Below the pieces are notes generated by a model, which saw nothing but the letters and a program-made list of their open reading frames with translations, did not search any database and was not told the DNA's origin. A stretch of DNA of 40,752 nucleotides, taken from contig CAJBBX010000117.1 of the NCBI GenBank assembly GCA_903951425.1, positions 1-40,752 of the forward strand, in the 5' to 3' direction. A program made the translations under genes and the position numbers. Source of the DNA: an uncultured Chthonomonas sp. (GTDB lineage: Bacteria; Armatimonadota; Chthonomonadetes; Chthonomonadales; CAJBBX01). Each line of letters opens with the position of its first letter. Within the stretch, counting starts at the first letter, position 1. Shown piece after piece: positions 5,359-28,226 of this stretch.

Positions 5359-5766
5359 TGGACCGATAACGCCCGGCCCAAGTCCACTTCGCAAGCCTCC
5401 GCACCCCATCCTCCGCCCGCAGCGAGCGTGCTTAATCTCCGCAATGGGCTCGATTCACTCCCAACACGCGGTCGCGCCACGGCTTCCTCACGGCTCGGAG
5501 ACTATTTAGCCATGCTAGGAACGCCATTGGGGAGCGGCTGTCGCGGGACATGCCGTATGGACTAGTGGCGACACCCCTGTCGCTGATCGGCGCCCTGCAC
5601 CATCATCTGGCGCATTTGATGGAACATCTCTAATAGCAGCGATGTCCAAGGTATCACCGGGCCTTACTGGCGTCTCTACACAGTGGGTTCTCGGTCACCT
5701 GTAGGTTTCTGACGTGTTTAGGTGCCATGGGCCCGTCATCTCACTCAAGTCTACGAAGGAACCCCC
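5359..5766. other. Long intergenic region before the hydrogenase operon
   Basis: This 408-base gap is visibly less GC-rich than its flanks and holds no credible reading frame. It contains one small perfect hairpin at 5568-5583 (GCGACA, loop CCCC, TGTCGC) with no T-run after it. No -35/-10 pair with proper spacing was found, although the hydrogenase promoter should lie here. Confidence 0.6.
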
Positions 5767-6681
5767 ATGCAGATCAATCGTCGTGACTTCGTTCGTTACT
5801 GTTCCGCCTCCGCCGCGGCACTGGGGCTGTCCGCCACCGAACTGGGCGCCCTTGAGGAGGCCATGGCCAACCCAGCCGCCCCCACGGTGCTCTGGCTTGA
5901 GGGCGCAGGCTGCTCAGGTTGTTCCGTCTCACTGCTCAACAGGATCTCACCCACCGGTCCTACCACGGCGGGTGACCTCCTCATCAACTCGGTCAACCTT
6001 GCGTACCACCCCACGCTGATGTCGGCCTCGGGCGAGTTGGCCGTCGCGGCCGCCAACCGGGCCTACACGGCCGGCGGGTATGTGCTCGTGGTCGAGGGCG
6101 CCGTCCCCACCAAGTTCGGCGGCGAGACCTGCGTCGCATGGACCTACACCGACAGCTCGGGCGTCGTGCGTGAGGAGACCTTCCAGGCCGCGGTGAAGCG
6201 CCTGGCATCGCGGGCTGCCGCTATTGTCTCCGTCGGCAACTGCGCTTCGTTCGGAGGTATGTCCGCCGCCCCGCCCAACCCAACCGGCGCGGTCAGTGTC
6301 GCCACGGCCACCGGCAAACCGACGATCAACGTGGCCGGCTGCCCTCCTCATCCCGACTGGATGATCTGGACCTTTGTGCAGATCCTGACCGGCAAGTTCG
6401 TGGCCACCGATACCAAGGGGCGGCCCACGGGCGTATTCAGCCGCACCGTGCATAGCCGTTGCCCCCGCCGCGAGAAGGACGAGACCGGCCAGTTCGGTCG
6501 AGACGGCTACTGTCTCGAGGAGCTGGGCTGCCGCGGCCCGGAGACGGTAGCTCCCTGCCCTGTAACGTTCTGGAACAACGGTGTTAGCTGGTGCGTCGGC
6601 GCCAATGCCCCATGCATTGGCTGCACCGAGCCGAGCTTCCCCGTCTCGCCGCTCATGGGCGGCGAAGGCGACGACGACTAA
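5767..6681 (+). CDS. [NiFe] hydrogenase small subunit (group 1 type), Tat-exported
   Basis: The small subunit carries the Fe-S clusters that take electrons from the NiFe site of the large subunit. ATG 5767 has GAAGGA six bases upstream and starts a twin-arginine signal (RRDFVRYC) whose hydrophobic part is short, so export of the folded dimer is expected. Cluster ligands are visible in order: CSGC, GNC and GCPPHPDW (proximal), HSRCPRR and GYCLEELGC (distal), then APCP, WC and PCIGC (medial). It is 304 residues long and ends in an acidic tail (GGEGDDD). The C-terminal membrane helix of respiratory MBH-type small subunits is absent, so the enzyme is probably soluble or anchored by another protein. 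The subgroup cannot be fixed from the sequence alone. Confidence 0.95.
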   Translation: MQINRRDFVRYCSASAAALGLSATELGALEEAMANPAAPTVLWLEGAGCSGCSVSLLNRISPTGPTTAGDLLINSVNLAYHPTLMSASGELAVAAANRAYTAGGYVLVVEGAVPTKFGGETCVAWTYTDSSGVVREETFQAAVKRLASRAAAIVSVGNCASFGGMSAAPPNPTGAVSVATATGKPTINVAGCPPHPDWMIWTFVQILTGKFVATDTKGRPTGVFSRTVHSRCPRREKDETGQFGRDGYCLEELGCRGPETVAPCPVTFWNNGVSWCVGANAPCIGCTEPSFPVSPLMGGEGDDD

Positions 6682-6714
6682 CACACCCCACAGAACGGAC
6701 GACAGGAGACATCG

Positions 6715-8157
6715 ATGCCGACCATCAGGACCATTGACCCTGTGACCCGCCTGGAGGGTCACCTGAAGATAGACGTAACCATCGACACCGTGAACGGCAA
6801 GCAGCAGGTCACGGAGGCCAAGGCCACCGGAACCCTGTTCCGCGGCTTTGAGCAGATCCTCGCCGGCCGCGACCCGTCCGACGCACCGCACATCACGCAG
6901 CGCGTCTGCGGCGTCTGCCCCGTGTCGCACGGCATGGCCGCCGTGATGACGCTGGACGCATGCGCCAAGACCCCGGCTCCCACCAACGCCCGCATCCTCC
7001 GCAACCTGGTGCTGGGCTCCAACTACATCCAGTCGCACATCCTCCACTTCTACCATCTCGCGCTGATGGACTTCGTGGAGGGGCCGGACATGCCGCCGTG
7101 GAAGCCCTCGTGGGGCGCCGACAAGCGGATCACGGGTGCGGCCGCAACCAAGCTGGTCAACAACTATGTCGCCGCCCTGGACATGCGCCGCAAGGCTCAC
7201 GAGATGGGCGCCATCTTCGGCGGCCGCCTGCCCCATCCCCCGACGTTCATCCCCGGTGGCATCACCGCGGTACCGAAGTCGACCAGCATCGCCCTGTTCA
7301 GCAAGTACCTCGTCGAGCTGACCGCGTTCATCAAGAACGTCTACATCCCGGACGTTGAGATCCTGGCCGCCGCCTACCCTGACTACGCGGCCATCGGCCG
7401 CGGCACAGGCAACCTCATCGCCTTCGGAGTGTTCGACCAGAACGCTGCGGGCAGCACGAAGCTCTTCCGCGCCGGCGTGGCCCTGGCCGGCTCGGCGACC
7501 ATCAAGACGCTCAGTGTGCCGGCGATCACCGAGAACGTGACCAGCTCCTGGTACGTCGGTGCAGCCCAGGACCTGCCCCCGGCCCAAGGCGACACCACGC
7601 CCGTCTACCCGAAGCCTGGCGCATACTCCTGGCTCAAGGCGCCGCGCTACTCCGGCGCACCTTACGAGGCCGGCCCGCTGGCCCGTATGTGGATTAACGG
7701 CGACTACCGCAAGGGCATCTCCGTCACCGACCGGCATCGCGCCCGGGCGGCGGAGGCCCTCAAGGTGGCGACTGCCATGAAGACCTGGGTGGCCCAGCTG
7801 AAGGTGGGGCAGCCCGTCTACACCCAGTACCAGATGCCCTCGTCTGCGTCGGGCTACGGGCTCACCGAGGCTCCCCGCGGCGCGCTCGGCCACTGGGCCA
7901 CGCTCTCGGGCGGCAAGATCTCGCGGTACCAGATCATCACCCCAACCTGCTGGAACGCCTCGCCTCGCGATCTGTCCGGCAAGCGCGGCCCCATGGAGCA
8001 GGCGCTAATCGGGACCCCGATCTCCAACATCAACGAGCCTAACGAGGTCCTGCGGGTCATCCACTCCTACGACCCGTGCCTCTCCTGCGCAGTGCACGTG
8101 ATGCGGCCTGACGAGGACAAGAAGCTCTTCGCGGTGGCGCTGCCGCATGCCCTCTGA
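6715..8157 (+). CDS. [NiFe] hydrogenase large (catalytic) subunit, group 1 type
   Basis: This 480-residue subunit holds the NiFe(CN)2CO centre that splits or forms H2. Both Ni-binding CxxC pairs are present: RVCGVCPVSH (Cys65, Cys68) and DPCLSCAVH (Cys455, Cys458). Cleavage after His461 would remove a 19-residue C-terminal extension once nickel is loaded, the usual maturation step. There is no signal peptide, so it should be exported together with the Tat-tagged small subunit. ATG 6715 follows AGGAG by six bases and lies 33 bases after the small-subunit stop. No cytochrome b, cytochrome c, ferredoxin or hypABCDEF gene is in the window, so its electron acceptor and metal-insertion genes must be elsewhere. 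Confidence 0.96.
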   Translation: MPTIRTIDPVTRLEGHLKIDVTIDTVNGKQQVTEAKATGTLFRGFEQILAGRDPSDAPHITQRVCGVCPVSHGMAAVMTLDACAKTPAPTNARILRNLVLGSNYIQSHILHFYHLALMDFVEGPDMPPWKPSWGADKRITGAAATKLVNNYVAALDMRRKAHEMGAIFGGRLPHPPTFIPGGITAVPKSTSIALFSKYLVELTAFIKNVYIPDVEILAAAYPDYAAIGRGTGNLIAFGVFDQNAAGSTKLFRAGVALAGSATIKTLSVPAITENVTSSWYVGAAQDLPPAQGDTTPVYPKPGAYSWLKAPRYSGAPYEAGPLARMWINGDYRKGISVTDRHRARAAEALKVATAMKTWVAQLKVGQPVYTQYQMPSSASGYGLTEAPRGALGHWATLSGGKISRYQIITPTCWNASPRDLSGKRGPMEQALIGTPISNINEPNEVLRVIHSYDPCLSCAVHVMRPDEDKKLFAVALPHAL

Positions 8158-8617
8158 GGGATCCCCTCGGTTCCTGGTGGTGGGCCTCGGCAATCTGCTG
8201 CTCATGGATGACGGCGTCGGCGTCCATGCGGTGCGCAGTCTGGCCGAGGACCCGCCGCCCGGGGCCCTCGTGGTTGAGGTCGGTACGGCCATTCTGGACG
8301 CGCTCCACCTGCTGGAAGGGGCGGAGCGCGTCCTGGCCATCGACGCCGTGCAGGCAGGCGGCGAGCCCGGCACGGTCTACCTGAGCGGGCTGGACGACAT
8401 GGCCCGGCCCGGCGTGGCGCTCTCCTTGCACGAGCTGGACATCCGCACCGCGGTCCGCATGATGGGCAGCGGCAAGGAGCTTCAGGTGGCGGTCGTGGGC
8501 GTGGAGCCCCAGACCATCGACTACGGCATGGACCTCACCGAACCGGTGGCCGCAGCGCTTCCCGCCGTGGAGCGAGAGGTGCGCCGGATCGTGGCCGAAT
8601 GGATGGCGGTGGAGTAG
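8147..8617 (+). CDS. Hydrogenase maturation endopeptidase (HyaD/HybD family)
   Basis: This 156-residue protease probably removes the C-terminal extension of the adjacent large subunit. It has the family signature GLGNLLLMDDGVGV. The three nickel-sensing ligands known from E. coli HybD (Glu16, Asp62, His93) correspond here to Asp22, Asp66 (AIDAVQ) and His95 (SLHELD). The gene overlaps the large-subunit gene by 11 bases, consistent with coupled translation. It closes the operon, and a hairpin covers its stop codon. Confidence 0.94.
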   Translation: MPSEGSPRFLVVGLGNLLLMDDGVGVHAVRSLAEDPPPGALVVEVGTAILDALHLLEGAERVLAIDAVQAGGEPGTVYLSGLDDMARPGVALSLHELDIRTAVRMMGSGKELQVAVVGVEPQTIDYGMDLTEPVAAALPAVEREVRRIVAEWMAVE

Positions 8618-8830: not shown

Positions 8831-11800
8831 ATGAAGCTCAGCTTGCATGACCCGCTGGCCAGAATGCTGTTCTGTGGGACAGCCTATGCGGTGGCTGTGT
8901 ACTGCGGTGCGGACACACCTCAGGCAGCGGCGGCAGGCGCGGCCGCCGGCGCGGTCGGTGCGAGCTGGCATAAAGAGCTGGCCGACATGGCCAAGGCCGT
9001 TTTCAGCAACCTGCTGAGTAGCGACGCGCACGGTAGTCTCGCCAAGCTTCCCGACGACCCAAAGGCGCTCCTGGCCAACCACGACCTTCGCCGAGCCGCC
9101 GGCGACGCCATCGCGGAAGTCCTCAAGGAGATGGCCCAACAAGGCGGCGAGCGATCGAAAGATCTGAAGGCGCTGGCCAACGCCGTGCCGACCTGGTTCC
9201 CCGGTTATTGCGATAGGCACGGCCCCGTCCTGGCTGGTCCCAAGGCCGCGAACGACAGCGATGATCAGGCCATCCTGAGCTACTTCACAGGGGGTCTCGA
9301 TCCCTTCAAGCCCGGCGATGGACCGAGCGTACCCGACTGGTACACGATGGTGGTGTCGCTGGCACAGGCGGCGAAGGTACCGATCGGGCTTCATGGAACG
9401 CTGGCCGACGATGTGGCGGCCAAACTGCACGAGCGGTTCTTTCACGCTCTCCGCGAGGTCATCAAGCGAGACGCCGCAGAAGGCGGCAAGGCCTACCCGG
9501 CTCTGGTCCTCATGGCGCTGAGCCATATCGCCTCCCTGGCTACTGGAGTCGAGGCGCACCTCAAAGCGCAAGATGTGACGGCGGAAGAGCATCACCGCGA
9601 CCTGACCAGGCGCTTGGAGACCCTCATCACGCGTTGCCTCGCGGCAGGCAAGGTCGTGCAGCGCCGCGTGGACCCAGCGCAGCACCATGAGGTCCTCGAG
9701 AGGTTCAAGGCGGTTGAACGCGATCTCAGGAGCGCCAACACGAAGGTCGACTTGGCGTTGCGCGAACTGGACAAGCGGCTCGACCAGATGCAGACCGAGC
9801 AGCGCGACCAAGCCGACCTCACCGAGCTCTGGTTTGAGCAGATCGACGGGCTGGTGCGCGGCAGCGTTGCGACGCTGGAGCAGGCCACCAAGCAGAGCGC
9901 CGCCGAGACACAGAAGGCCGTTGAACGTGCGGCAGAGCGCGTCATTGCTGCCGTCAGTCACCCGGCCCAACCCGCCTTTCCCGCCATTCCGAAGCCGCGG
10001 GCGGCGCAACTCTACGAGCCGCGGCCCGACGAGGAGAGCGACGCTACCGATGCGCTCGTCTGCTCGGATGGCTCGTTCGGCGTCGTGGCGCTCGTGGGTA
10101 TGGCAGGTATCGGCAAGACCTACCTCGCCGAACGGGTGGCGTGGGTTCAGCGCACCGCCCTCGGTGAGCGGCGCCTTCGGTTGGCGTTGGGGGCGGACGC
10201 GAAGTCAGGGCCTACGGACCTGGCCCGCACCCTCTGCGAACTCCACGGCATCCCGCTCCCTCCCGGCCAAGCCGACGCTACAGGGCTACTGGCGGCTGCC
10301 CTCGGCGTGCAGCCGGCGCTTGTGCTCGTGGAGAATGTCGATCGGCCGGACCTCGTGCCGGCCGTCGCGGATTTAGTCGCGCATCTGCCCGCCGTGCCCA
10401 TGCTCATCACCGGCCGCTGCCATGCGCTCAACGACCCAACGAAGCCCTGGCGGGCGGTGCCGATCGGCCTCCTGCGCCGAGAGCAGGCCGACTCGCTGCT
10501 GGACAAGGAGCTTGGCCCTGAGCACGCCGACCGCGTCATCACGGCAGACCGCGACGCCCTGTACGCCCGGCTTGAGGGCATGCCCCTCGCCATCCGCATG
10601 GCTGCAGGCCACATTGTGCACGGTGGACGGTCCGTGAAGCAGTTCCTTGAGGAACTGAACGAGCGCCACGCCAACGTAGGGCATGTGGCCGGAGACAGGC
10701 CTGCCGACCCGGTTGAGGCGGAGCGCCAGAGGACGCTGGCCGCCTCGGTGCTCCTGAGCTTGCAGGCCCTGGAGGAGGGTGAGCAGGGCCGGGCCCACAG
10801 TCGCGCACTGCTGCGCCTCTCCGTCGGACCGCCCCCGGGCGTGGGTGCGTGGCTGGCTGGGTTCCTCTCCGGCGCCGTCAGTACGCAGGCGCTGCATGAT
10901 GCCTGCGTGGCGGCGCGGAACTTGGGGCTGCTGAACCCCACGCTGGAGCGCAACGCGGGCGAGCCCGAGGTGCTGACCCACATTGCCTTCCACCCGCTGG
11001 TGGCTCAGGTGCTGAACCACCGCGCCGGCCAGGGCGACCCGCCCACCCTTCGTGACGTCGGACTCGACGCCCTTACGGAGTGGTTCATCCAGCGCTTGCG
11101 CGAGACCGGCGACGATGCCCCGGCCCGGCGGTGGCGCGAGATCGGCTGCGAGCTGCCCGCCCTGAAGCACTGGCTCGCACAGATGCCCGATGCCCGCCGC
11201 ATGGAGGCCCTCCATGTCGGAGGCCTGTACGCCGTGCTCAACGGTCCCTACCTCTGGTGGGCCGACTTCTGCAAGCCTCTGACGCGTTCCCGGGACGCCG
11301 AAGTGCGCTCTCGGGCGCAATGGATCCTGGGCAACGCTCAACTGCGGATGGGCGCTCTCGACGCCGCGCTGGCCACCGCACGGTCGATGCAGAAGCTTGA
11401 CCGCGTCGCCGCCAACGCCGCACGCGACGCTGACGCCCGTGACCGCCGGCTAGAGTCCGCCGCCCTCGCCGCCTCATTGGAGGCCTATATCCATCAGCTC
11501 CGTGGGGAGCTGGACGAAGCGCTACGCATCCGGCGGGATGAGTGCCTGCCCGTCTTCGAGCGGCTCGGCTGCGTGCGCCAGTGCGCGGTCACCATGGGCT
11601 TCATCGCGGACATCCTGAAGGACCGTGGCGAACTGGACGAGGCGCTGCGAAAGTGCGAGGCAGCCAAGAACCAGTTCGCCAAGATCGATGATGTGCGGCA
11701 TGTGGCCTCTATGTGGGGCGAAATCGCGAGCATCCGCCAGTCGCGCGGCGAGTCGGACGAGGCGCTGCGAATTTGGCGGGATGAGTGCCTGCCCGTCTAC

Positions 11801-12133
11801 GAGCGGCTCGGTGACGTGCGCGAGCGCGCGGTGACCATGGGCTCCATCGCTGATATCCTGCAGGGCCGTGGCGATCTGGACGAAGCGCTGCGCATCGAGC
11901 GCGGAGAGTGCCTGCCCGTCTTCGAGCGGCTCGACGACGTGCGCGAGCGCGCGGCGAGTATGACGCGAATTGCGGACATCCTCTACCGACGCGGCGCGCC
12001 GGAGGACGGCGCCGAGATCGAGCGGCTGATGCGTATGGCGCTGGCCAATGCCCGGCGCCTGCGCATACCGGAAGCGGGGCAGATCGAGAGGCGGATGGTC
12101 GCGATAGGGCTGGATCCCGGGCGGATCCCGTAG
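8831..12133 (+). CDS. NB-ARC/STAND ATPase with C-terminal TPR repeats
   Basis: This 1100-residue protein is a signal-transducing ATPase of the STAND class, which typically oligomerises on sensing a ligand. ATG 8831 follows GGAGG by seven bases. Residues 1-260 match no family I recognise; they include a hydrophobic Ala/Gly-rich stretch at about 13-46 that could be membrane-active. A coiled coil (about 275-385) leads to the ATPase, with Walker A GMAGIGKT near 423, a Walker B-like LVLVENVD near 500, ITGR near 525 and the NB-ARC signature EGMPLAI near 580. From about 890 there are three to four TPR-like repeats of about 40 residues (RGELDEALRI...ADIL). Such proteins serve in phage defence or regulation. 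No defence gene flanks it, so its role is open. Confidence 0.85.
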   Translation: MKLSLHDPLARMLFCGTAYAVAVYCGADTPQAAAAGAAAGAVGASWHKELADMAKAVFSNLLSSDAHGSLAKLPDDPKALLANHDLRRAAGDAIAEVLKEMAQQGGERSKDLKALANAVPTWFPGYCDRHGPVLAGPKAANDSDDQAILSYFTGGLDPFKPGDGPSVPDWYTMVVSLAQAAKVPIGLHGTLADDVAAKLHERFFHALREVIKRDAAEGGKAYPALVLMALSHIASLATGVEAHLKAQDVTAEEHHRDLTRRLETLITRCLAAGKVVQRRVDPAQHHEVLERFKAVERDLRSANTKVDLALRELDKRLDQMQTEQRDQADLTELWFEQIDGLVRGSVATLEQATKQSAAETQKAVERAAERVIAAVSHPAQPAFPAIPKPRAAQLYEPRPDEESDATDALVCSDGSFGVVALVGMAGIGKTYLAERVAWVQRTALGERRLRLALGADAKSGPTDLARTLCELHGIPLPPGQADATGLLAAALGVQPALVLVENVDRPDLVPAVADLVAHLPAVPMLITGRCHALNDPTKPWRAVPIGLLRREQADSLLDKELGPEHADRVITADRDALYARLEGMPLAIRMAAGHIVHGGRSVKQFLEELNERHANVGHVAGDRPADPVEAERQRTLAASVLLSLQALEEGEQGRAHSRALLRLSVGPPPGVGAWLAGFLSGAVSTQALHDACVAARNLGLLNPTLERNAGEPEVLTHIAFHPLVAQVLNHRAGQGDPPTLRDVGLDALTEWFIQRLRETGDDAPARRWREIGCELPALKHWLAQMPDARRMEALHVGGLYAVLNGPYLWWADFCKPLTRSRDAEVRSRAQWILGNAQLRMGALDAALATARSMQKLDRVAANAARDADARDRRLESAALAASLEAYIHQLRGELDEALRIRRDECLPVFERLGCVRQCAVTMGFIADILKDRGELDEALRKCEAAKNQFAKIDDVRHVASMWGEIASIRQSRGESDEALRIWRDECLPVYERLGDVRERAVTMGSIADILQGRGDLDEALRIERGECLPVFERLDDVRERAASMTRIADILYRRGAPEDGAEIERLMRMALANARRLRIPEAGQIERRMVAIGLDPGRIP

Positions 12134-20045: not shown

Positions 20046-20074
20046 TTGACCCTTGGCGTCCGCGCGGTCATAAT
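20046..20074 (+). promoter_or_regulatory. Sigma-70-type promoter for the DUF5060 glycosidase gene
   Basis: TTGACC (20046-20051), a 17-base spacer and CATAAT (20069-20074) form a near-consensus promoter, one mismatch in each element. Transcription should start near 20081, inside the operator at 20079-20096 and about 90 bases before the start codon. Confidence 0.75.
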
Positions 20075-20078
20075 GGCT

Positions 20079-20096
20079 TCATGTAACCGTTTCAAG
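20079..20096 (+). promoter_or_regulatory. LacI-type operator, copy 1
   Basis: TCATGTAACCGTTTCAAG is identical over 18 bases to the complement of 24878-24895 beside the lacI-type gene. The core TGTAACCGTTTCA is an imperfect palindrome with a central CG, the form usual for LacI-family operators. It begins four bases after the -10 element, so binding should block initiation. Confidence 0.78.
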
Positions 20097-20169: not shown

Positions 20170-22422
20170 ATGCGATCGTGGCGCCGTCGGGCGCGCCGGC
20201 CACTCGTTCCATGGTCGGCGCTTGCACTTGTCTGCCTGGCTGCCGGCGGAGTGCCGGCCGATGCGTCCGTGATCACCCTCAAGAGCGGGATGCCGGGCAC
20301 GGTGGCCAGGTGCGCCCGAGGGCAGATCACCTTCTCGCTGGATCGCGGCTACGCCAACCCCTACGATCCCGCGGAGGTAGATGCACGAGCCGTCTTCACG
20401 GCGCCGTCCGGTAGGCGGATCGTGGCTCACGCCTACGCATTCCGGCCCTACTCGAAGGCCGACATAGAGGGCGGCGCGGCAACAGCGGTTCCGCTCGGAG
20501 ACATGGCCTGGCAGGTGCGCTTCTCCCCGACCGAGGCGGGGCGCTACCGGGCAGCGCTGGAGGTGGTCGACTCGACCGGCACAGCGGCGCTGGAGCTACC
20601 GGGGTTCGAGTGCGTCCCGTCAGGCGATCCTGGGTTCATTCGAGCTGTGGCCGGTCCCAATGGCCGCGCTGTCTACGAAACAGGCGGTATGTTCCTGCCC
20701 ATCGGCGAGTGCCTCTGGATGCCCCGGTCGCTGGAGCAGTTCCGCCGGGAGTTCGACCTGTACGCCCAAAACGGGATGAACTACTTCCGGTTCTTCACCA
20801 GCCACGACTCGATGTTCTTCTTCGAGTCCGCCCGCCAACCCACCGGCCAGTACGATCAGCTCGCCCTGAGCCGCCTGGACCGGCTGTTCGAGGAGGTGTC
20901 GGCGCGCGGCCTCGCCGTGATGCCCTGTCTGGAGATGTTCGCCGACTTTCGGGTGACACAGCCCTACCCGTACTGGGACGAGAACCCGTACAACCGCCGC
21001 AACGGCGGCCCCTGCGCGAAGGTGAGCGACTTCTTCACCAGCGCCGACGCCAAACGGCTCTACAAGAACAAGCTGCGCTACTTCGCGGCCCGGTACGGCG
21101 CCTACTCGGCGCTCTTCTGCGTCCAGTTGTTCGCGGAGGCCAACTACACCGAAAACTACGACATGGCTGCGGTTCGGCTATGGCACAAGGAGATGGCCGG
21201 GTACCTTCGGTCAGTCGATCCCTACGGCCATCCGATCTCCACGAGCATGGCGGCCTGGGACTCGCAGGACAAAGCGCTCTTCGCGCTGCCTGAACTGGAC
21301 CTGGTCCTCAACGAGGTCTACAACGCCTGCGACTTCGCGGCCGAGTTGTCGCAGGACAACGCCGAGATCCTCAAGCGGTACCGCAAGCCCGTGTTCTTGG
21401 CGGAGACAGGGATCACGTTCGAGTACTTCGTGGCCAACGACCCGGCCGGTATCCACATCCACAACAGCGTCTGGGCCAACCCCATGTCGGGCGGTGTTGG
21501 CGTACCCAGCTTCTGGTGGACCTCCTACATCCGGGAGCGGAACCTCCTGCCCCACTTCGGCGCCTTCGCCCGGTTCATCGCCGGCGAGGATCTCGTGGGA
21601 CTGCATCCGGTGTCACCGCGCGTGTCGGTGAAGCGCGACGACAGCGTTCATCCAGACCTGATCCTAACCTTCCCATACCAGGATCCGCCCGGGGCGAAGG
21701 GCCCGCAGACCATCGAGCTGCGCAACGACCGGCATCTGGCAGCCGAGATACCCGAACTGCCCCGCAACCTGTATGGACGCACAAGCCCAGATGGCCGCCC
21801 GAGCTCGGCCTACAACCCGCTGACGCTCGTGACGGACTTCGCCGCCGATGGCGCCATCAACATCCATCCGCGCTGGGTGGGGGCGCCCGCCTCCGCTGAA
21901 GCTGAGCTTCATGTCACGATTGACGGTGTCCCGGCCAAGGTGATCCGGTACACCGGCTGTGCCATGGACGACTTTTCGGCTTTCCTGGCCAAGTCGAAGG
22001 AAGTCTGCGTGGTAACCAGCGTGCCGGTGAGCAAGGGGCGACACCGCATCGTGCTTGACAACCACGGCAGCCTGTTCGTCAGCGCGGCGCTGGACCTCAC
22101 CAACTACCTTAAGAGCAGCGTGCCGAACCTCAGGGTCCTCGGCATGGGCAACTCGCAGCGCGCTTTCCTCTGGCTACAGAACCGCGACAACACCTGGTGG
22201 CGGAACGCCCAGGGCAAGCGACCCCGCAGGCTGGCAGGCGCCGGGATCAGCCTGCCCGACATGGAGGCCGGAGCATACGAGGTTGAATGGTGGGATACGT
22301 ACAGCGGAGCCCCCATCCGCCGCCAACGCCTCAACTGCACCGGCGGCATCCTGCGGATCCCCGTGGAGCCGCTCGAGACCGACACGGCATGCAAGGTTCG
22401 GCGCGTGGGCGGGGCGCCGTAG
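20170..22422 (+). CDS. Secreted DUF5060-containing glycosidase (GH-A-type barrel)
   Basis: This 750-residue protein has an arginine-rich signal peptide (residues 1 to about 31). A DUF5060-like Ig domain follows (about 35-150), with AVFTAPSGRRI and WQVRFSPTEAGRYRA. The (beta/alpha)8 barrel has QLFAEANY near 324 and VFLAETGITFEY near 410 as likely acid/base and nucleophile glutamates. A C-terminal part (about 560-750) looks like beta-sandwich. ATG 20170 starts the signal peptide, with GGGAGG 12 bases upstream; an in-frame TTG at 20122 is less likely. It is transcribed from the LacI-operator promoter just upstream, which ties it to the permease operon at 25014. The substrate is unknown. Confidence 0.78.
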   Translation: MRSWRRRARRPLVPWSALALVCLAAGGVPADASVITLKSGMPGTVARCARGQITFSLDRGYANPYDPAEVDARAVFTAPSGRRIVAHAYAFRPYSKADIEGGAATAVPLGDMAWQVRFSPTEAGRYRAALEVVDSTGTAALELPGFECVPSGDPGFIRAVAGPNGRAVYETGGMFLPIGECLWMPRSLEQFRREFDLYAQNGMNYFRFFTSHDSMFFFESARQPTGQYDQLALSRLDRLFEEVSARGLAVMPCLEMFADFRVTQPYPYWDENPYNRRNGGPCAKVSDFFTSADAKRLYKNKLRYFAARYGAYSALFCVQLFAEANYTENYDMAAVRLWHKEMAGYLRSVDPYGHPISTSMAAWDSQDKALFALPELDLVLNEVYNACDFAAELSQDNAEILKRYRKPVFLAETGITFEYFVANDPAGIHIHNSVWANPMSGGVGVPSFWWTSYIRERNLLPHFGAFARFIAGEDLVGLHPVSPRVSVKRDDSVHPDLILTFPYQDPPGAKGPQTIELRNDRHLAAEIPELPRNLYGRTSPDGRPSSAYNPLTLVTDFAADGAINIHPRWVGAPASAEAELHVTIDGVPAKVIRYTGCAMDDFSAFLAKSKEVCVVTSVPVSKGRHRIVLDNHGSLFVSAALDLTNYLKSSVPNLRVLGMGNSQRAFLWLQNRDNTWWRNAQGKRPRRLAGAGISLPDMEAGAYEVEWWDTYSGAPIRRQRLNCTGGILRIPVEPLETDTACKVRRVGGAP

Positions 22423-22489: not shown

Positions 22490-22735
22490 CTACCCTCCGG
22501 AGCCGGAGGGGGCCTGTTCGGTCACCTTGTTCTGGAACCCGGCGGGCGGACCCGACGGCCCCCGCATTGCGCCCGAAGGCGGGCCGCCGGGCTGGCCCGG
22601 TCCACGGTACTGCGGTGGCGGGGCCGACTTAGCCCAGTCTTCCTTCTTGTCACCGAGCTGCTCCTTCTGCGTCGAGCAACCGGCCAGCGATATGGCGATG
22701 AGGCAGGCGCCCAAGCCCAACTGGAGTGCCCTCAT
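22490..22735 (-). CDS. Small proline/glycine-rich lipoprotein
   Basis: This 81-residue protein has a clear lipoprotein signal with lipobox LAGC (Cys20), followed by a charged segment and a Pro/Gly-rich tail. ATG 22735 is preceded by GGAGG with six-base spacing, which favours it over an in-frame ATG five codons upstream. No function can be assigned. It lies 27 bases behind the DUF1559 pseudopilin gene on the same strand, so the two are probably co-transcribed and may act together at the cell envelope. Confidence 0.8.
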   Translation of the reverse strand: MRALQLGLGACLIAISLAGCSTQKEQLGDKKEDWAKSAPPPQYRGPGQPGGPPSGAMRGPSGPPAGFQNKVTEQAPSGSGG

Positions 22736-22762: not shown

Positions 22763-23605
22763 CTACTGGGTCCGTGTGGCGTCCCACATGTAGAAGAACG
22801 GCCCGATGCAGCCGCAGTTGTTCTGGGCGTTGGCCTTGACGGTCGTGCGCGGCCTCATCGACTTGGCGTGTCCGTCAGCGAACGCGAAGTTGCCCATGCC
22901 CGAGTGTACGACCGCGATGGCGCCGTCCGAGCTGGGATCCGGCTGCGACCATGTGCCGTCGCCGGTCTGAATCTGGCCCGGGAGCGACTGGCCGGCGTCC
23001 GCGCCGTCGCCGCCGATGAGTACGGCGTTCCACGGGCTGAATGCGCCGTGCATGGGCGGGTTCTCGCCGTTCAGCCAGGAACCCGGGGGCATCTTGTGGC
23101 GCTCGGCGAACATGATGGTCTCCGCCGACAGGTTCACGCCCGCCAGCGTCTGCGGGGTCATATCGAACCAGTTGCGGGATGCGTTGATCACCCCGAGGAA
23201 CTTCCACTGCCAGGTCGGCGCTCCGCAGGTGCCACCGATGATGCCGTTGGCCACATAGCTGAACGCGGGGCCAGACCAGGACGCCACCTTGTGGTTGTCG
23301 CTGGGACAGCGGAAAGCCGCGAAGTTCTTCATGTACGGCTGGGTATGCATGAGCCAGGTCAACTGCCAGCCCCAGCCGTTGGCGGCCTGCGGCTCGCCTT
23401 CGGCGCAGAAGGTCTCGTCGTAGTCCTGCGTGTACATGAGGCTGGCGAGAGCCACCTGCTTCATGTTGCTCAGGCAGGAGGTCTGCCGGGCTTTCTCGCG
23501 TGCCTGTGCGAACACAGGGAACAGGATCGCCGCCAGAATGGCGATGATCGCGATAACGACCAGGAGTTCGATCAGCGTGAAGGCTGACCGTTTGGTGCTC
23601 ACCAT
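22763..23605 (-). CDS. DUF1559-family pseudopilin with type IV pilin-like leader
   Basis: This 280-residue protein starts with a short basic leader (MVSTKRSA) followed by [20 protein letters not shown], the class III signal processed by prepilin peptidase, with Glu at position +5. The C-terminal H-X9-DG motif (H, nine residues, then DG within FADGHAKS) marks the DUF1559 group, which is expanded in Planctomycetota, Armatimonadota and relatives. The sequence after the helix ([16 protein letters not shown]) is of the Armatimonadota kind. Such proteins are thought to be extracellular pseudopilins, perhaps binding or secreting polymers; their actual role is not established. ATG 23605 has AGGAGG about nine bases upstream. 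It lies 82 bases after the LacI gene on the same strand. Confidence 0.92.
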
Positions 23606-23687: not shown

Positions 23688-24821
23688 CTACGGTACCGAT
23701 CCCCCCCTTCTGGCGCCTCGCGGTGCGCTGAGGCCCGGCGGCGGCGCAGTGCTGCGACGCCGAACCAGGACGCCTGGGAAGATAATCGGCTCCTTGCGGA
23801 GCACGGGGCCACCCTCGATCGCCGTGATGAGCAGCTCCGCGGCCTTGACTCCCATCTCGTGGAACGGCTGGCGGATCGTGGTGAGCTGGGGTCGGCACCA
23901 CCGGGCCACGTCGTGGTCGTCGAAGCCCAGGATGGAGACCTCGTCCGGTACCCGTATGTGCAGGCGGTGGAGGGCCTCCAGGGCGCCGACGGCCACGCCG
24001 TCGTTGCCGCAGATGATGGCTGTGGGCCGCGGATCGGCCGTCATCAGTTCGGCGGCGCCTGCTTGGCCGGACGCATAGGTGTAGTCGCCGGCATACCGCA
24101 GGGATGCGATGGCCTCCAATCCCGCAGAAGCCAGCGCCCGGGCGTAGGCGTTCTCGCGGCGGACGGCGCTCCACTGGGTGGGAGGCCCCGTAATGATCCC
24201 GATATGGCGGTGCCCCAGTTCAGTAAGCCACCGAACCGCGTTGAGAATCGCGGCCTCGTCATCCACGTCCACTCTCGGGATGTCGATCCCGTCGGGCAGG
24301 CTACCCACAAGAACGATGGGTAGCGCCGCTGTCTGCGCCCACGCCACCAGTGCGCCGTCGCTGTTGGGCGCAATGAGGGCGGCGGCATCCATGCTCCCGT
24401 TATCGACGCACTGGGCGACCGTCTGGCTGTCGTTGCACTTCAGCGAGACGATCTTGACCTGGTAGTCCGCTTCACCGGCGAAGTCGAGGATGCCGTCCAG
24501 CACCTCTACGCAGAAGGCATTCGCGGTGAAGCGTCCGGTGGTCATCGTCTCCACCACCACGCCCAGCGTCCGCGTCTGTCTCCGCGCCAGGTTCTGCGCG
24601 GTCCGGTTGGGCCTGTAGGAGAGCTCCTCGGCGCTGCGGCGCACGCGTTCCACCGTGGCCGCCGCGTGCAGCGAGGACTTGCCCTGCAGCACGTGCGAGA
24701 CCGTGGCCACCGACACGCCGGCGTGTTTGGCCACATCCCGGATGGTAGGGGAGCCTTGCGGCCTCATGGAGCCCTGTGGACCCGGAGCGTCTGGTTCGGG
24801 GCTCGGCGGCATGGACGCCAT
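23688..24821 (-). CDS. LacI-family transcriptional repressor
   Basis: A 377-residue regulator with a typical LacI helix-turn-helix ([20 protein letters not shown], residues 26-45) and hinge helix ([14 protein letters not shown]). The periplasmic-binding-protein-like sensor domain has [32 protein letters not shown] and [16 protein letters not shown] in their usual order. Its ligand is presumably a sugar but cannot be named. ATG 24821 has AGGA three bases upstream; Met19 (24767) would give a more canonical N-terminus. It is divergent from the permease gene, and an operator of LacI form lies in its own initiation region, so autorepression is expected. The pseudopilin and small lipoprotein genes follow on the same strand. 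Confidence 0.93.
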
Positions 24822-24877: not shown

Positions 24878-24895
24878 CTTGAAACGGTTACATGA
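24878..24895 (-). promoter_or_regulatory. LacI-type operator, copy 2
   Basis: Read on the minus strand this is TCATGTAACCGTTTCAAG, identical to copy 1 at 20079-20096. It starts four bases downstream of the minus-strand -10 element, the same geometry as copy 1. It also covers the -35 element of the plus-strand permease promoter, so one bound repressor could silence both directions. Confidence 0.82.
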
Positions 24896-24907
24896 TCGAA
24901 GTATACT
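24879..24907 (+). promoter_or_regulatory. Promoter of the permease operon
   Basis: TTGAAA (24879-24884), a 17-base spacer and TATACT (24902-24907). The -35 element lies within the LacI-type operator. The expected start near 24914 gives a leader of about 100 bases before ATG 25014. Confidence 0.72.
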
Positions 24908-24928
24908 GGTCGCGCAGGCATCTGTCAA
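24900..24928 (-). promoter_or_regulatory. Promoter of the LacI-family gene
   Basis: On the minus strand, consensus TTGACA (24928-24923), a 17-base spacer and TATACT (24905-24900). Its -10 overlaps that of the opposite promoter through the palindrome AGTATACT (24900-24907). The predicted start near 24893 falls inside the operator, about 70 bases before the start codon. Confidence 0.75.
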
Positions 24929-25013: not shown

Positions 25014-27029
25014 ATGTCGCTTGGCGACGATCCGACCATCGACCCTCTGGGGCGAACTGCCAGGTTGCGCCTCAACCGTGGCGCGCCGACGGACGGCGCA
25101 ACGCCTCGGCACTCCGGCGGGCCGCTCACGGTTCGCGCCTTCGTCCTCAACGCGTTGTTCGCTCCCCTCTGCGTCTACTGGGCGCGGGATCAGGGGGTCG
25201 ATCGCATCTTCTCGCTCATGATCCCGCCCGTGGTGCTGACGCTGCTGTTGGTCGCCGCCAACGTGCCGCTCCGCCGCTTCTGCCGCCGCTCGGCGTTTAC
25301 ACAAACCGAACTGGTGCTCTTCTATGCCATGCAGGCGATCATCTGCGCCGTGGCATCGGAGTGGGTCGACAACACGGTCGCCTACGCACACAGCTATGCG
25401 CTCTACGGTGCAGGTAACAGCAGCGTAGAGAAGGGCATCCTCCCGTACGCCAGTGAACGCCTCTTCTTCCTGGACAAGGCCGGGCTGGAGACGTACACCG
25501 GAGGCGGCAAACCGCTCACCTATGCCCTGACCCAGCTTCCGATGTGGTGGCCGAAGATCGCCGCCTGGACGCTGCTCATGGGCCTGGTCTGCCTGGCCAT
25601 GCTCTGCATCAACTCGCTCATGCGGGACCAGTGGACCAACCGGGAGCGCCTGTCGTTCCCCACGCTGCAGCTTCCCATCGCCATCACGCAGGCAGGGGGA
25701 GCCGGCCCCGTCTGGCGGAGCCGCTGGATGTGGGGCGCGTTCGCCGGCATGTTCGCCATCGACATACTGAACGGGTTCTCATTTCTTTACCCATCGATCC
25801 CGAGCATCAACGTCCGGTTCATGGGCGACCTCGGCCTCTGGTTTCCCTCGCGCCCATGGAGCGACATCGGATGGACGCCCATCGCCATCTTCCCCTACCT
25901 GTCGGCGATCGGCCTGTTCATGCCGACGGACCTGCTCCTCTCCTGCATCGTCTTCTTCTTTGTGCGGAAGGGCCAGCAGGTGCTGCTCTCCAGCATGGGC
26001 TACGAGCAGGGCTACTTCGGGGGAGGCGGCCTGGTACCCACGCCGCCGTACGCGACGGAGCAGTCCTGGGGGGCGTTTGTTGGACTGGCTGTCATGGCCG
26101 TCTGGGTGGCGCGTGGCTACCTGCGGGAGGTGTGGGGCGAGATACGGAACGGCGGGACGACCGATCGCAGGCTGGTGCCCCACCGCTCTGCGTTCGCCGG
26201 GCTCGTGGCATCGGTCTGCGGCCTGGGCGCCTTCGGGGTTCAGTGCGGATTACCGTTTGTGTTCGTCATCGGCTACAGCGGAGCCTTCCTCGTGTTCAGC
26301 GTCGCGCTCACGAAGCTCCGTGCGCAGCTCGGCCCGCCGCTAAACGAGGTGGCGCTGCTGGGCCCCAACCAGCTCATCGTGGACTTCCGGGGCACCCACG
26401 GCATCCCGGCCCCGATGATCGCCCGGTGGGTCACCATGCTGAACTTCATGAACCGGATCCACCGCACGCATCCCATGCCGCACCAGTTGGAAAGCATCAA
26501 GCTGGCCGAGCAGCATGGGGTCAGCCAGAGGGCCATGTTCACGGCCATCGCCCTGGCTTCGGTTCTGGGCATCGCCATGGGCGGCCTATGCCAGGTGATC
26601 ATCGGCTACAGGCTGGGCGCCACGAACACCGCCTGGGATACGCCGGCCATCATCCAGCAACTCACCGACACGCCGAGGCCGCCCAACCTCGCGGCGATCT
26701 GCGCCATCACGCTGGGTTTCGCCGGAGTGCTGGCCCTGGACAGCGTCCGGTTCCACATGCCCGGCTTCCTGCTGCATCCCGCCGGCTACGCATTGGGCAT
26801 GAACTTCGGCATCGACTACATCTGGTTCGGACTCACCCTAGTCCTGATCCTGAAGGTCTTCGTGCAGCGCTACTACGGCCTCGCCGGGTACGAGAAGCTG
26901 CGCATGGCGGCGCTCGGAATCATCCTCGGCGAGTACGTGGCAGAGGCAATATGGTCCTCCTTAGCCATGCTGACGCATGCGGCGACCTACACGGTGAGCA
27001 TCAACGGACGGCTCATCTGGAACCAATGA
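25014..27029 (+). CDS. DUF6785/DUF6784-type membrane permease (OPT-like)
   Basis: A multi-pass inner-membrane protein of 671 residues with a dozen or more hydrophobic segments, such as IFSLMIPPVVLTLLLVAANV near the N-terminus and GIAMGGLCQVIIGY late in the chain. The conserved-looking motifs (AYAHSYALYG, RDQWTNRERLSFP, FRGTHGIPAPMI) and the length match the DUF6785/DUF6784 proteins common in Armatimonadota and Planctomycetota, which resemble OPT transporters; no substrate is known. ATG 25014 is chosen because GGGAGA lies seven bases upstream; ATG 24930 and 24999 are in frame but have poor sites. It is transcribed from the LacI-controlled promoter and followed by a UroD-superfamily gene. Uptake of a small glycoside or its product is the natural inference. 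Confidence 0.8.
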   Translation: MSLGDDPTIDPLGRTARLRLNRGAPTDGATPRHSGGPLTVRAFVLNALFAPLCVYWARDQGVDRIFSLMIPPVVLTLLLVAANVPLRRFCRRSAFTQTELVLFYAMQAIICAVASEWVDNTVAYAHSYALYGAGNSSVEKGILPYASERLFFLDKAGLETYTGGGKPLTYALTQLPMWWPKIAAWTLLMGLVCLAMLCINSLMRDQWTNRERLSFPTLQLPIAITQAGGAGPVWRSRWMWGAFAGMFAIDILNGFSFLYPSIPSINVRFMGDLGLWFPSRPWSDIGWTPIAIFPYLSAIGLFMPTDLLLSCIVFFFVRKGQQVLLSSMGYEQGYFGGGGLVPTPPYATEQSWGAFVGLAVMAVWVARGYLREVWGEIRNGGTTDRRLVPHRSAFAGLVASVCGLGAFGVQCGLPFVFVIGYSGAFLVFSVALTKLRAQLGPPLNEVALLGPNQLIVDFRGTHGIPAPMIARWVTMLNFMNRIHRTHPMPHQLESIKLAEQHGVSQRAMFTAIALASVLGIAMGGLCQVIIGYRLGATNTAWDTPAIIQQLTDTPRPPNLAAICAITLGFAGVLALDSVRFHMPGFLLHPAGYALGMNFGIDYIWFGLTLVLILKVFVQRYYGLAGYEKLRMAALGIILGEYVAEAIWSSLAMLTHAATYTVSINGRLIWNQ

Positions 27030-27095: not shown

Positions 27096-28226
27096 ATGAC
27101 ATCCCGTGAGAGGCTGCAGTGCGTGCTGCGAGGCGGCATCCCCGACTGCGTGCCCGTCTGCCCCGACATCTCCAACATGGTTCCGGCGCGACGCACAGGC
27201 AAGCCCTTCTGGGACATCTACCTCTACAACGATCCGCCGCTCATGGACGCGTACATCGATGCCGCCCGCCACTACGGCTTCGACGCCTTCATGGACCTCT
27301 TCCCGCTCACCTTTCCCGAGGAGGCCGCTGGAGCCGAGGGATGGGAGCGCTTCATCGTCCGCCGCACAGAAAGCGCGATCACCACGCAGCTCTGCCGCAA
27401 GGAGGGAGGCAAGCGGACCTGGAGCCCCACCGTGGATGTCTTCCCGGTGGCCGATCCGCCCACCCACGGTGTGGACCCGGCCAAGGTTGGCCTGCCGTCG
27501 GTTCCCGAGCGCTTCGAGCCGGTAGAGGGCGTGCGGCCCTTCGACACGGGGCCTGCGGGCTTTCAGCGGATCAAGCGGCGCATGGGGGATCAGGGCCTGG
27601 TGGGCGTGTACGTCACCTACTCGGCCGTTCTCGGCAACCCGGACATGATCTACCACTACCTCGACAACCCCGACCTGCATGAGCAGTGGGCCGAAGAGCG
27701 CGTGCGGGTCGCCGAGGAGCGCTTCGCCCGTGTGATGGCCATGGAGGAGAAGCCTGACTTCATCTGCGTGGGAGGCTCAGGCACTCTGGTCTTCCAGACG
27801 ATGGAGATCTTCCGCCAACTGGCCTTCCCGGCGGTGAAGCGCGTCATCGACCTGGCCACGGAGGCGGGCCTGCCCACGCACATACATTCCTGCGGCCCGG
27901 AACGTGAACTGGTGCGAGTCATGGCCGAGGAGACCAACCTGACCCTCATTGACCCGCTGGAGACGCCACCCATGGGAGACTGCGACCTGGCCGTACTGAA
28001 GCGGCTCTGGGGCGGCAAGCTGACACTGAAGGGCAACCTGCACACCACGGAGGTGATGCTGATGGGCAGCCCCGAGGACGTGGCCCGCGCCTCGCGCAAG
28101 GCGATCGACTACGCGGCCGAGGGCGGCCGGTTCATCCTCTCCACAGGCGACCAGTGCGGGCGGGATACGCCCGACGCCAACCTGGAGGCGATGATCGAGG
28201 CCGCCCGCACCTACGGCCGCTACTGA
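27096..28226 (+). CDS. UroD-superfamily methyltransferase-like protein (MtaA/CmuA type)
   Basis: A 376-residue cytoplasmic protein of the uroporphyrinogen decarboxylase superfamily. It shows the zinc-site pattern of cobamide-dependent methyltransferases such as MtaA: His264-x-Cys266 in HSCG and a distant Cys354 in GDQCGRDTP. This makes a methyl-transfer role more likely than haem synthesis. The C-terminal DTPDANLEAMIEAARTYG is typical of the superfamily. No corrinoid protein gene is nearby. ATG 27096 has AGGAGA nine bases upstream. It follows the permease by 66 bases and is presumably under the same LacI-type control, which suggests work on the imported compound. Its stop overlaps the convergent gene by seven bases. 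Confidence 0.82.
   Translation: MTSRERLQCVLRGGIPDCVPVCPDISNMVPARRTGKPFWDIYLYNDPPLMDAYIDAARHYGFDAFMDLFPLTFPEEAAGAEGWERFIVRRTESAITTQLCRKEGGKRTWSPTVDVFPVADPPTHGVDPAKVGLPSVPERFEPVEGVRPFDTGPAGFQRIKRRMGDQGLVGVYVTYSAVLGNPDMIYHYLDNPDLHEQWAEERVRVAEERFARVMAMEEKPDFICVGGSGTLVFQTMEIFRQLAFPAVKRVIDLATEAGLPTHIHSCGPERELVRVMAEETNLTLIDPLETPPMGDCDLAVLKRLWGGKLTLKGNLHTTEVMLMGSPEDVARASRKAIDYAAEGGRFILSTGDQCGRDTPDANLEAMIEAARTYGRY

Follow-up and report, generated by a model that had tools for sequence, protein, structure and literature searches.

An identical 18-bp sequence, TCATGTAACCGTTTCAAG, stands ahead of two genes in the window, the whole 40,752-nucleotide stretch of DNA analysed here, and raises the question of whether a glycoside hydrolase and a LacI-family repressor are under the same control. 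This stretch is contig C117 of genome G000 (6.08 Mb in 188 contigs), which was scanned by pattern searches. One copy of the sequence, at 20079-20096 on the forward strand, lies over the expected transcription start of a gene for a DUF5060/GH5-like glycoside hydrolase of 750 amino acids (20170-22422, forward strand). The other, at 24878-24895 on the reverse strand and 4.8 kb away, lies over that of a lacI-family gene (23688-24821, reverse strand). The initial annotation had assigned the enzyme to the neighbouring regulator on the strength of this match. The 18-mer is very probably the operator of the repressor encoded at 23688-24821, which would govern a local, autoregulated regulon in this uncultivated freshwater bacterium.

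The promoter geometry proved to be exactly as first described, with the same orientation, a TTGAC-type -35, a 17-base spacer and a site that begins four bases after the -10 in both places. The enzyme promoter (20046-20074, forward strand) has TTGACC at 20046-20051 and CATAAT at 20069-20074 and scores 10 of 12 in a consensus scan, while the lacI promoter (24900-24928, reverse strand) has TTGACA at 24928-24923 and TATACT at 24905-24900 and scores 11 of 12. Together with the site the arrangements are TTGACC-17-CATAAT-GGCT-site (20046-20096) and TTGACA-17-TATACT-TCGA-site (24928-24878), and the two promoters point towards each other. The scan rendered three promoter-like matches in the 6-kb region, compared with 0.4 +/- 0.6 in shuffled sequences. 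Besides the site and the promoter hexamers, the two promoters have no evident sequence in common. A recent promoter duplication was considered as the origin of the two copies and rejected because the spacers and flanks do not match.

The claim that such a match is unlikely by chance is borne out at several scales. Even when up to 3 mismatches are allowed the window contains no third copy, and shuffled versions of the window contain a mean of 0.01 matches at that threshold, with none of 100 shuffles reaching two. A scan of the whole genome with the site, proposed beforehand as a check, found just the two promoter copies at up to 3 mismatches and none scattered inside genes, and about 9e-6 exact copies are expected genome-wide from base composition. 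A search of approximately 85,000 species genomes turned up seven exact copies of the 18-mer. Four of them stand at these two promoters in two congeners (recorded as an Armatimonadetes bacterium from Lake Pavin and as an uncultured Chthonomonas sp.). The remaining three, in Limosilactobacillus, Neomarinimicrobiota and Desulfobacterium, are in unrelated bacteria, within or at the ends of genes or beside unrelated genes, and look like chance occurrences.

G002 and G003 are two further species of the genus, and each encodes orthologues of both the repressor (95% identical in G002 and 82-87% over two contig fragments in G003) and the enzyme (94% and 87% identical respectively). The 18-mer is unchanged at both promoters in all three species (18/18), and 63% of the intergenic columns outside the promoter and site are identical on the enzyme side and 78% on the lacI side. 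With the columns treated as independent, both 18-mers would be fully conserved with a probability of about 3e-6. At the lacI promoter, 33 of the 34 columns from the -35 to the site are kept in the three species. At the enzyme promoter TTGACC is kept in G002 and G003, and the -10 is CATAAT in G002 and TATAAT, with a 16-bp spacer, in G003.

Most LacI-family operators are even palindromes with a central CG (PMC4052901). The window site is an imperfect palindrome (TGTAACC|GTTTCAA) of a form that fits such an operator, and its register is arguable. The nearest LacI protein outside the genus (in G010, 52% identical) has TTGAAACGTTTCAAG in the same place in its promoter, a perfect palindrome with a central CG that is found in the G010 genome only at that lacI promoter. 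The window site is best read as a hybrid of the half-sites TGTAACC and GTTTCAA around CG because the right half of the G010 palindrome, CGTTTCAAG, is identical to its own right half. A search of the three congeners for the perfect palindrome TTGAAACGTTTCAA, with up to 2 mismatches allowed, found none, and there are therefore no further sites of that form in them. Of the 2-mismatch matches to the 13-/14-bp core that were inspected, several are in genes or in a tRNA; those that follow a good -10 are only the paralogous lacI promoter on contig C39 and a pair of sites on C175 and C143 (see below).

The position of the 18-mer at the expected start of both transcripts would also suit a conserved initial transcribed sequence, or a 5' leader RNA element common to the two promoters. 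Such an element is very unlikely, as Rfam gave no match, the 18-mer has the CG-centred form of a LacI-family operator and the homologous G010 gene carries a perfect palindrome in the same place. Moreover, the copy on C175 is inverted, which is easier to reconcile with a DNA site of two-fold symmetry than with an RNA element.

A LacI-family operator is the more plausible reading of the site, and the protein that would bind it is most simply the one encoded beside it. The product of 23688-24821 has both domains of the family, a LacI helix-turn-helix at its N-terminus (PF00356, 54.5 bits with a cut-off of 27) and, after it, the periplasmic-binding-protein-like sugar sensor Peripla_BP_3 (PF13377, 126 bits with a cut-off of 26.5), and its nearest solved relative is CcpA. 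Four other LacI proteins are encoded in the genome, however, on C39, C110, C67 and C56, and this counts against the assignment. One of these proteins might bind the operator, with the neighbouring lacI as merely one of its targets, and the operator-like sequence of the C39 paralogue has the same core, GGTTACA/TGTAACC. Nevertheless this is unlikely. All five lacI genes have a TTGACA-17-(-10) promoter followed at once by an operator-like sequence that is different in each, with clear inverted repeats at C39 (GCAAACGGTTACAGTAACCGCTTG) and C56 (ATGCATACGTATGCAT) and less regular sequences at C110 and C67. The recognition residues of the other four also differ from those of the window protein (V17/H22), being K17/R22 in C39, T17/R22 in C110 and C67 and Q17/R22 in C56. 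Finally, the site and the window lacI have been kept together in all three species. In two remoter homologues recognition position 22 is Asn in place of His, and the corresponding promoter sequences are TTAAACGTTTAA and TTAAGCGTTTAA. In this small number of cases the operator appears to change with the LacI protein, the comparison of recognition residues resting on four proteins. A simple scan recognised neither a promoter nor an operator upstream of many remoter LacI homologues. The C56 palindrome has a second copy with 2 mismatches, ATGCATTCGTATGCAC, between that lacI and its pseudopilin gene (L150:8914-8929).

That the DUF5060 enzyme belongs under the LacI regulator beside it is thereby supported by the uniqueness of the site, its conservation in three species, the operator-like sequences at five lacI promoters and the G010 variant, all of which point to this protein as the probable binder. 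Bound as a dimer over the transcription start, the repressor would shut RNA polymerase out of two promoters, that of its own lacI-pseudopilin-lipoprotein operon and that of the enzyme gene. A glycan breakdown product would free the repressor, and the whole set would be induced together. In the Escherichia coli lac system, operator O1 likewise follows the -10 closely and covers the transcription start. The window differs from the lac system in that the repressor's own promoter carries an operator, and in having no auxiliary operators nearby and no visible tetramerisation heptad. The last of these bears on whether the two sites act as a pair, with a repressor tetramer, or two dimers brought together, looping the intervening 4.8 kb. 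Two identical sites do flank two convergent transcription units, but looping over several kilobases is weak and is not needed for the data, and it was set aside as extremely unlikely because the C-terminus of the repressor shows no leucine heptad of the E. coli LacI kind.

Independent repression at each promoter by a dimer remains the preferred reading, and the set of genes that it would control is wider than the initial annotation had described. The second gene of the lacI operon (22763-23605, reverse strand) encodes a DUF1559-type pseudopilin (PF07596 and PF07963) that shares 47% identity with the one encoded behind the G010 lacI, and the third (22490-22735, reverse strand) a small Pro/Gly-rich putative lipoprotein with a lipobox-like LAGC. 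A possible divergent promoter, TTGAAA-17-TATACT (24879-24907, forward strand), scores 10 of 12 in the consensus scan and equally in both congeners. Its -35 is inside the second operator copy and its -10 overlaps the lacI -10, so the lacI-side site probably also covers this candidate promoter at its -35. Downstream are the genes for a DUF6785/DUF6784 membrane protein (25014-27029, forward strand; Pfam E=1e-101) and, behind it, a URO-D or corrinoid-methyltransferase-like protein (27096-28226, forward strand; Pfam), the latter 49% identical to a URO-D protein encoded in a DUF5060 operon of G010. The membrane protein gene is a probable member of the regulon through the divergent promoter, and the URO-D-like gene would probably belong to it as well.

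A degenerate third site, also new to this analysis, is found on contig C175 as TATACT-GG-TTGAACCGGTTATATGG ahead of a second DUF5060 gene (L114:12900-13130), which is apparently split between contigs C175 and C46. The G003 orthologue of this gene has TATACT-GA-TTGAACCGGTTACATGG (L115:11740-11980, contig C143), whereas no orthologue was found in G002. The pattern TATACTNNTTGAAMCGGTTA is exact only at the C175/C143 pair, and the only two other matches that the three genomes contain differ from it at 3 positions. The -35 ahead of the C175 copy is weak. The copy itself is inverted relative to transcription, and because of this inversion a joint alignment of all promoter types was discarded as meaningless. 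It is probably a third operator, and its place in the regulon is putative. The targets are consequently few and close to the regulator, with two exact sites 4.8 kb apart and one degenerate candidate elsewhere.

The enzyme is probably secreted, in that its N-terminus resembles a signal peptide. Pfam assigns DUF5060 at cut-off, and the structure model (mean pLDDT 78, pTM 0.81) matches ManDH5, a beta-mannanase from Dictyoglomus thermophilum (GH5 with DUF5060; PDB 9gmj and relatives), in fold over the DUF5060 domain and TIM barrel (Foldseek 8e-42), in domain order and in sequence (phmmer 2.8e-60). Both catalytic glutamates are kept, E323 aligning with the acid/base E303 of ManDH5 and E412 with the nucleophile E392, and they are invariant in 11 sequences. 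Compared with ManDH5, the window enzyme has Ala in place of the Asn before the acid/base, Glu in place of the His in HxY, and extra C-terminal regions. All three orthologues have FAE in place of NE. The NE is kept in most paralogues without the operator, and AE recurs in the paralogue group that carries the third site. Because of the Ala before E323 and the Glu in HxY the enzyme was not filed as a GH5 mannanase, and the Ala would predict a changed specificity.

A two-operator LacI regulon is a known and ordinary type of circuit. Local autoregulated sugar regulons of this family have been described (Ravcheev et al. 2014, PMC4052901), and 72% of the LacI regulators studied there are autoregulated. 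The window resembles them in the LacI-family gene, in an operator at the regulator's own promoter that is conserved between species, in a neighbouring glycan-degradation target, and in an operator centred on CG some 60-75 bp ahead of the start codon. It differs in its lineage, in a site that is a hybrid of two unlike half-sites, and in its targets, which include a DUF1559 pseudopilin and a DUF6785 membrane protein and no known sugar transporter. A literature search found nothing relevant on LacI operators in Armatimonadota or Chthonomonas. The operator, repressor and targets proposed here constitute a testable regulon in a phylum that has been little studied.

The same kinds of gene are arranged differently in G010, which belongs to the same family of bacteria. 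There, an operon on C54 (L113:1581-7874) contains a regulator, a small Pro/Gly-rich protein, a DUF1559-like pseudopilin, a DUF5060 enzyme and a URO-D protein. In the regulator a LacI-type sensor is joined to a DNA-binding domain of the GntR type, and the enzyme is closer to the C175/C46 paralogue than to the window enzyme. One operon with a shared promoter needs one operator, whereas the window has separate units tied by operator copies, which would account for the presence of two operators.

Less expected than the circuit itself is the pairing of lacI with pseudopilin genes. Every one of the genome's five LacI genes has a DUF1559-type pseudopilin gene behind it, on the same strand and no more than about 0.3 kb away (L003, L054, L055, L057 and L058). 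The genome has 63 genes with the pseudopilin N-terminal motif, which gives a chance of about 0.0016 per LacI gene under random placement and about 1e-14 that all five would be so placed. G010 shows the pairing at both of its LacI homologues, and phylum-wide a pseudopilin gene is found within 1.5 kb downstream of 11 of 26 LacI homologues. DUF1559 proteins form a large paralogous family of unknown function that has been described mainly from Planctomycetes (PMC10632474, PMC2754498), and no paper was found on their pairing with LacI. One might tentatively suppose, with rather less than even confidence, that LacI-type repressors in Armatimonadota are a standard switch by which each set of glycan-degradation genes is coupled to a DUF1559 pseudopilin of its own. 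Pseudopili for surface or secretion functions, specific to a sugar, would then be induced together with the matching enzymes. On this view the window set would be tied together by a duplicated operator since the enzyme is in a separate, convergent unit.

The value of the locus lies in its lineage, in the targets of unknown function and in this pairing. Shared control would tie a DUF1559 pseudopilin, a DUF6785 membrane protein and a URO-D-like protein to one glycoside hydrolase, and the five-of-five pairing offers a handle on DUF1559, a family of no known role that is found dozens of times in a genome. On C39 the lacI-pseudopilin pair is followed by three sulfatase-like genes (L147:9853-16087), whose translations suggest a set for a sulfated glycan.

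Elsewhere in the window, three adjacent genes at 5722-8617 resemble, judging by their translations, those for a hydrogenase small subunit, large subunit and maturation protease. The translation of 8831-12133, a protein of 1100 amino acids, resembles a STAND-type NTPase with C-terminal repeats.
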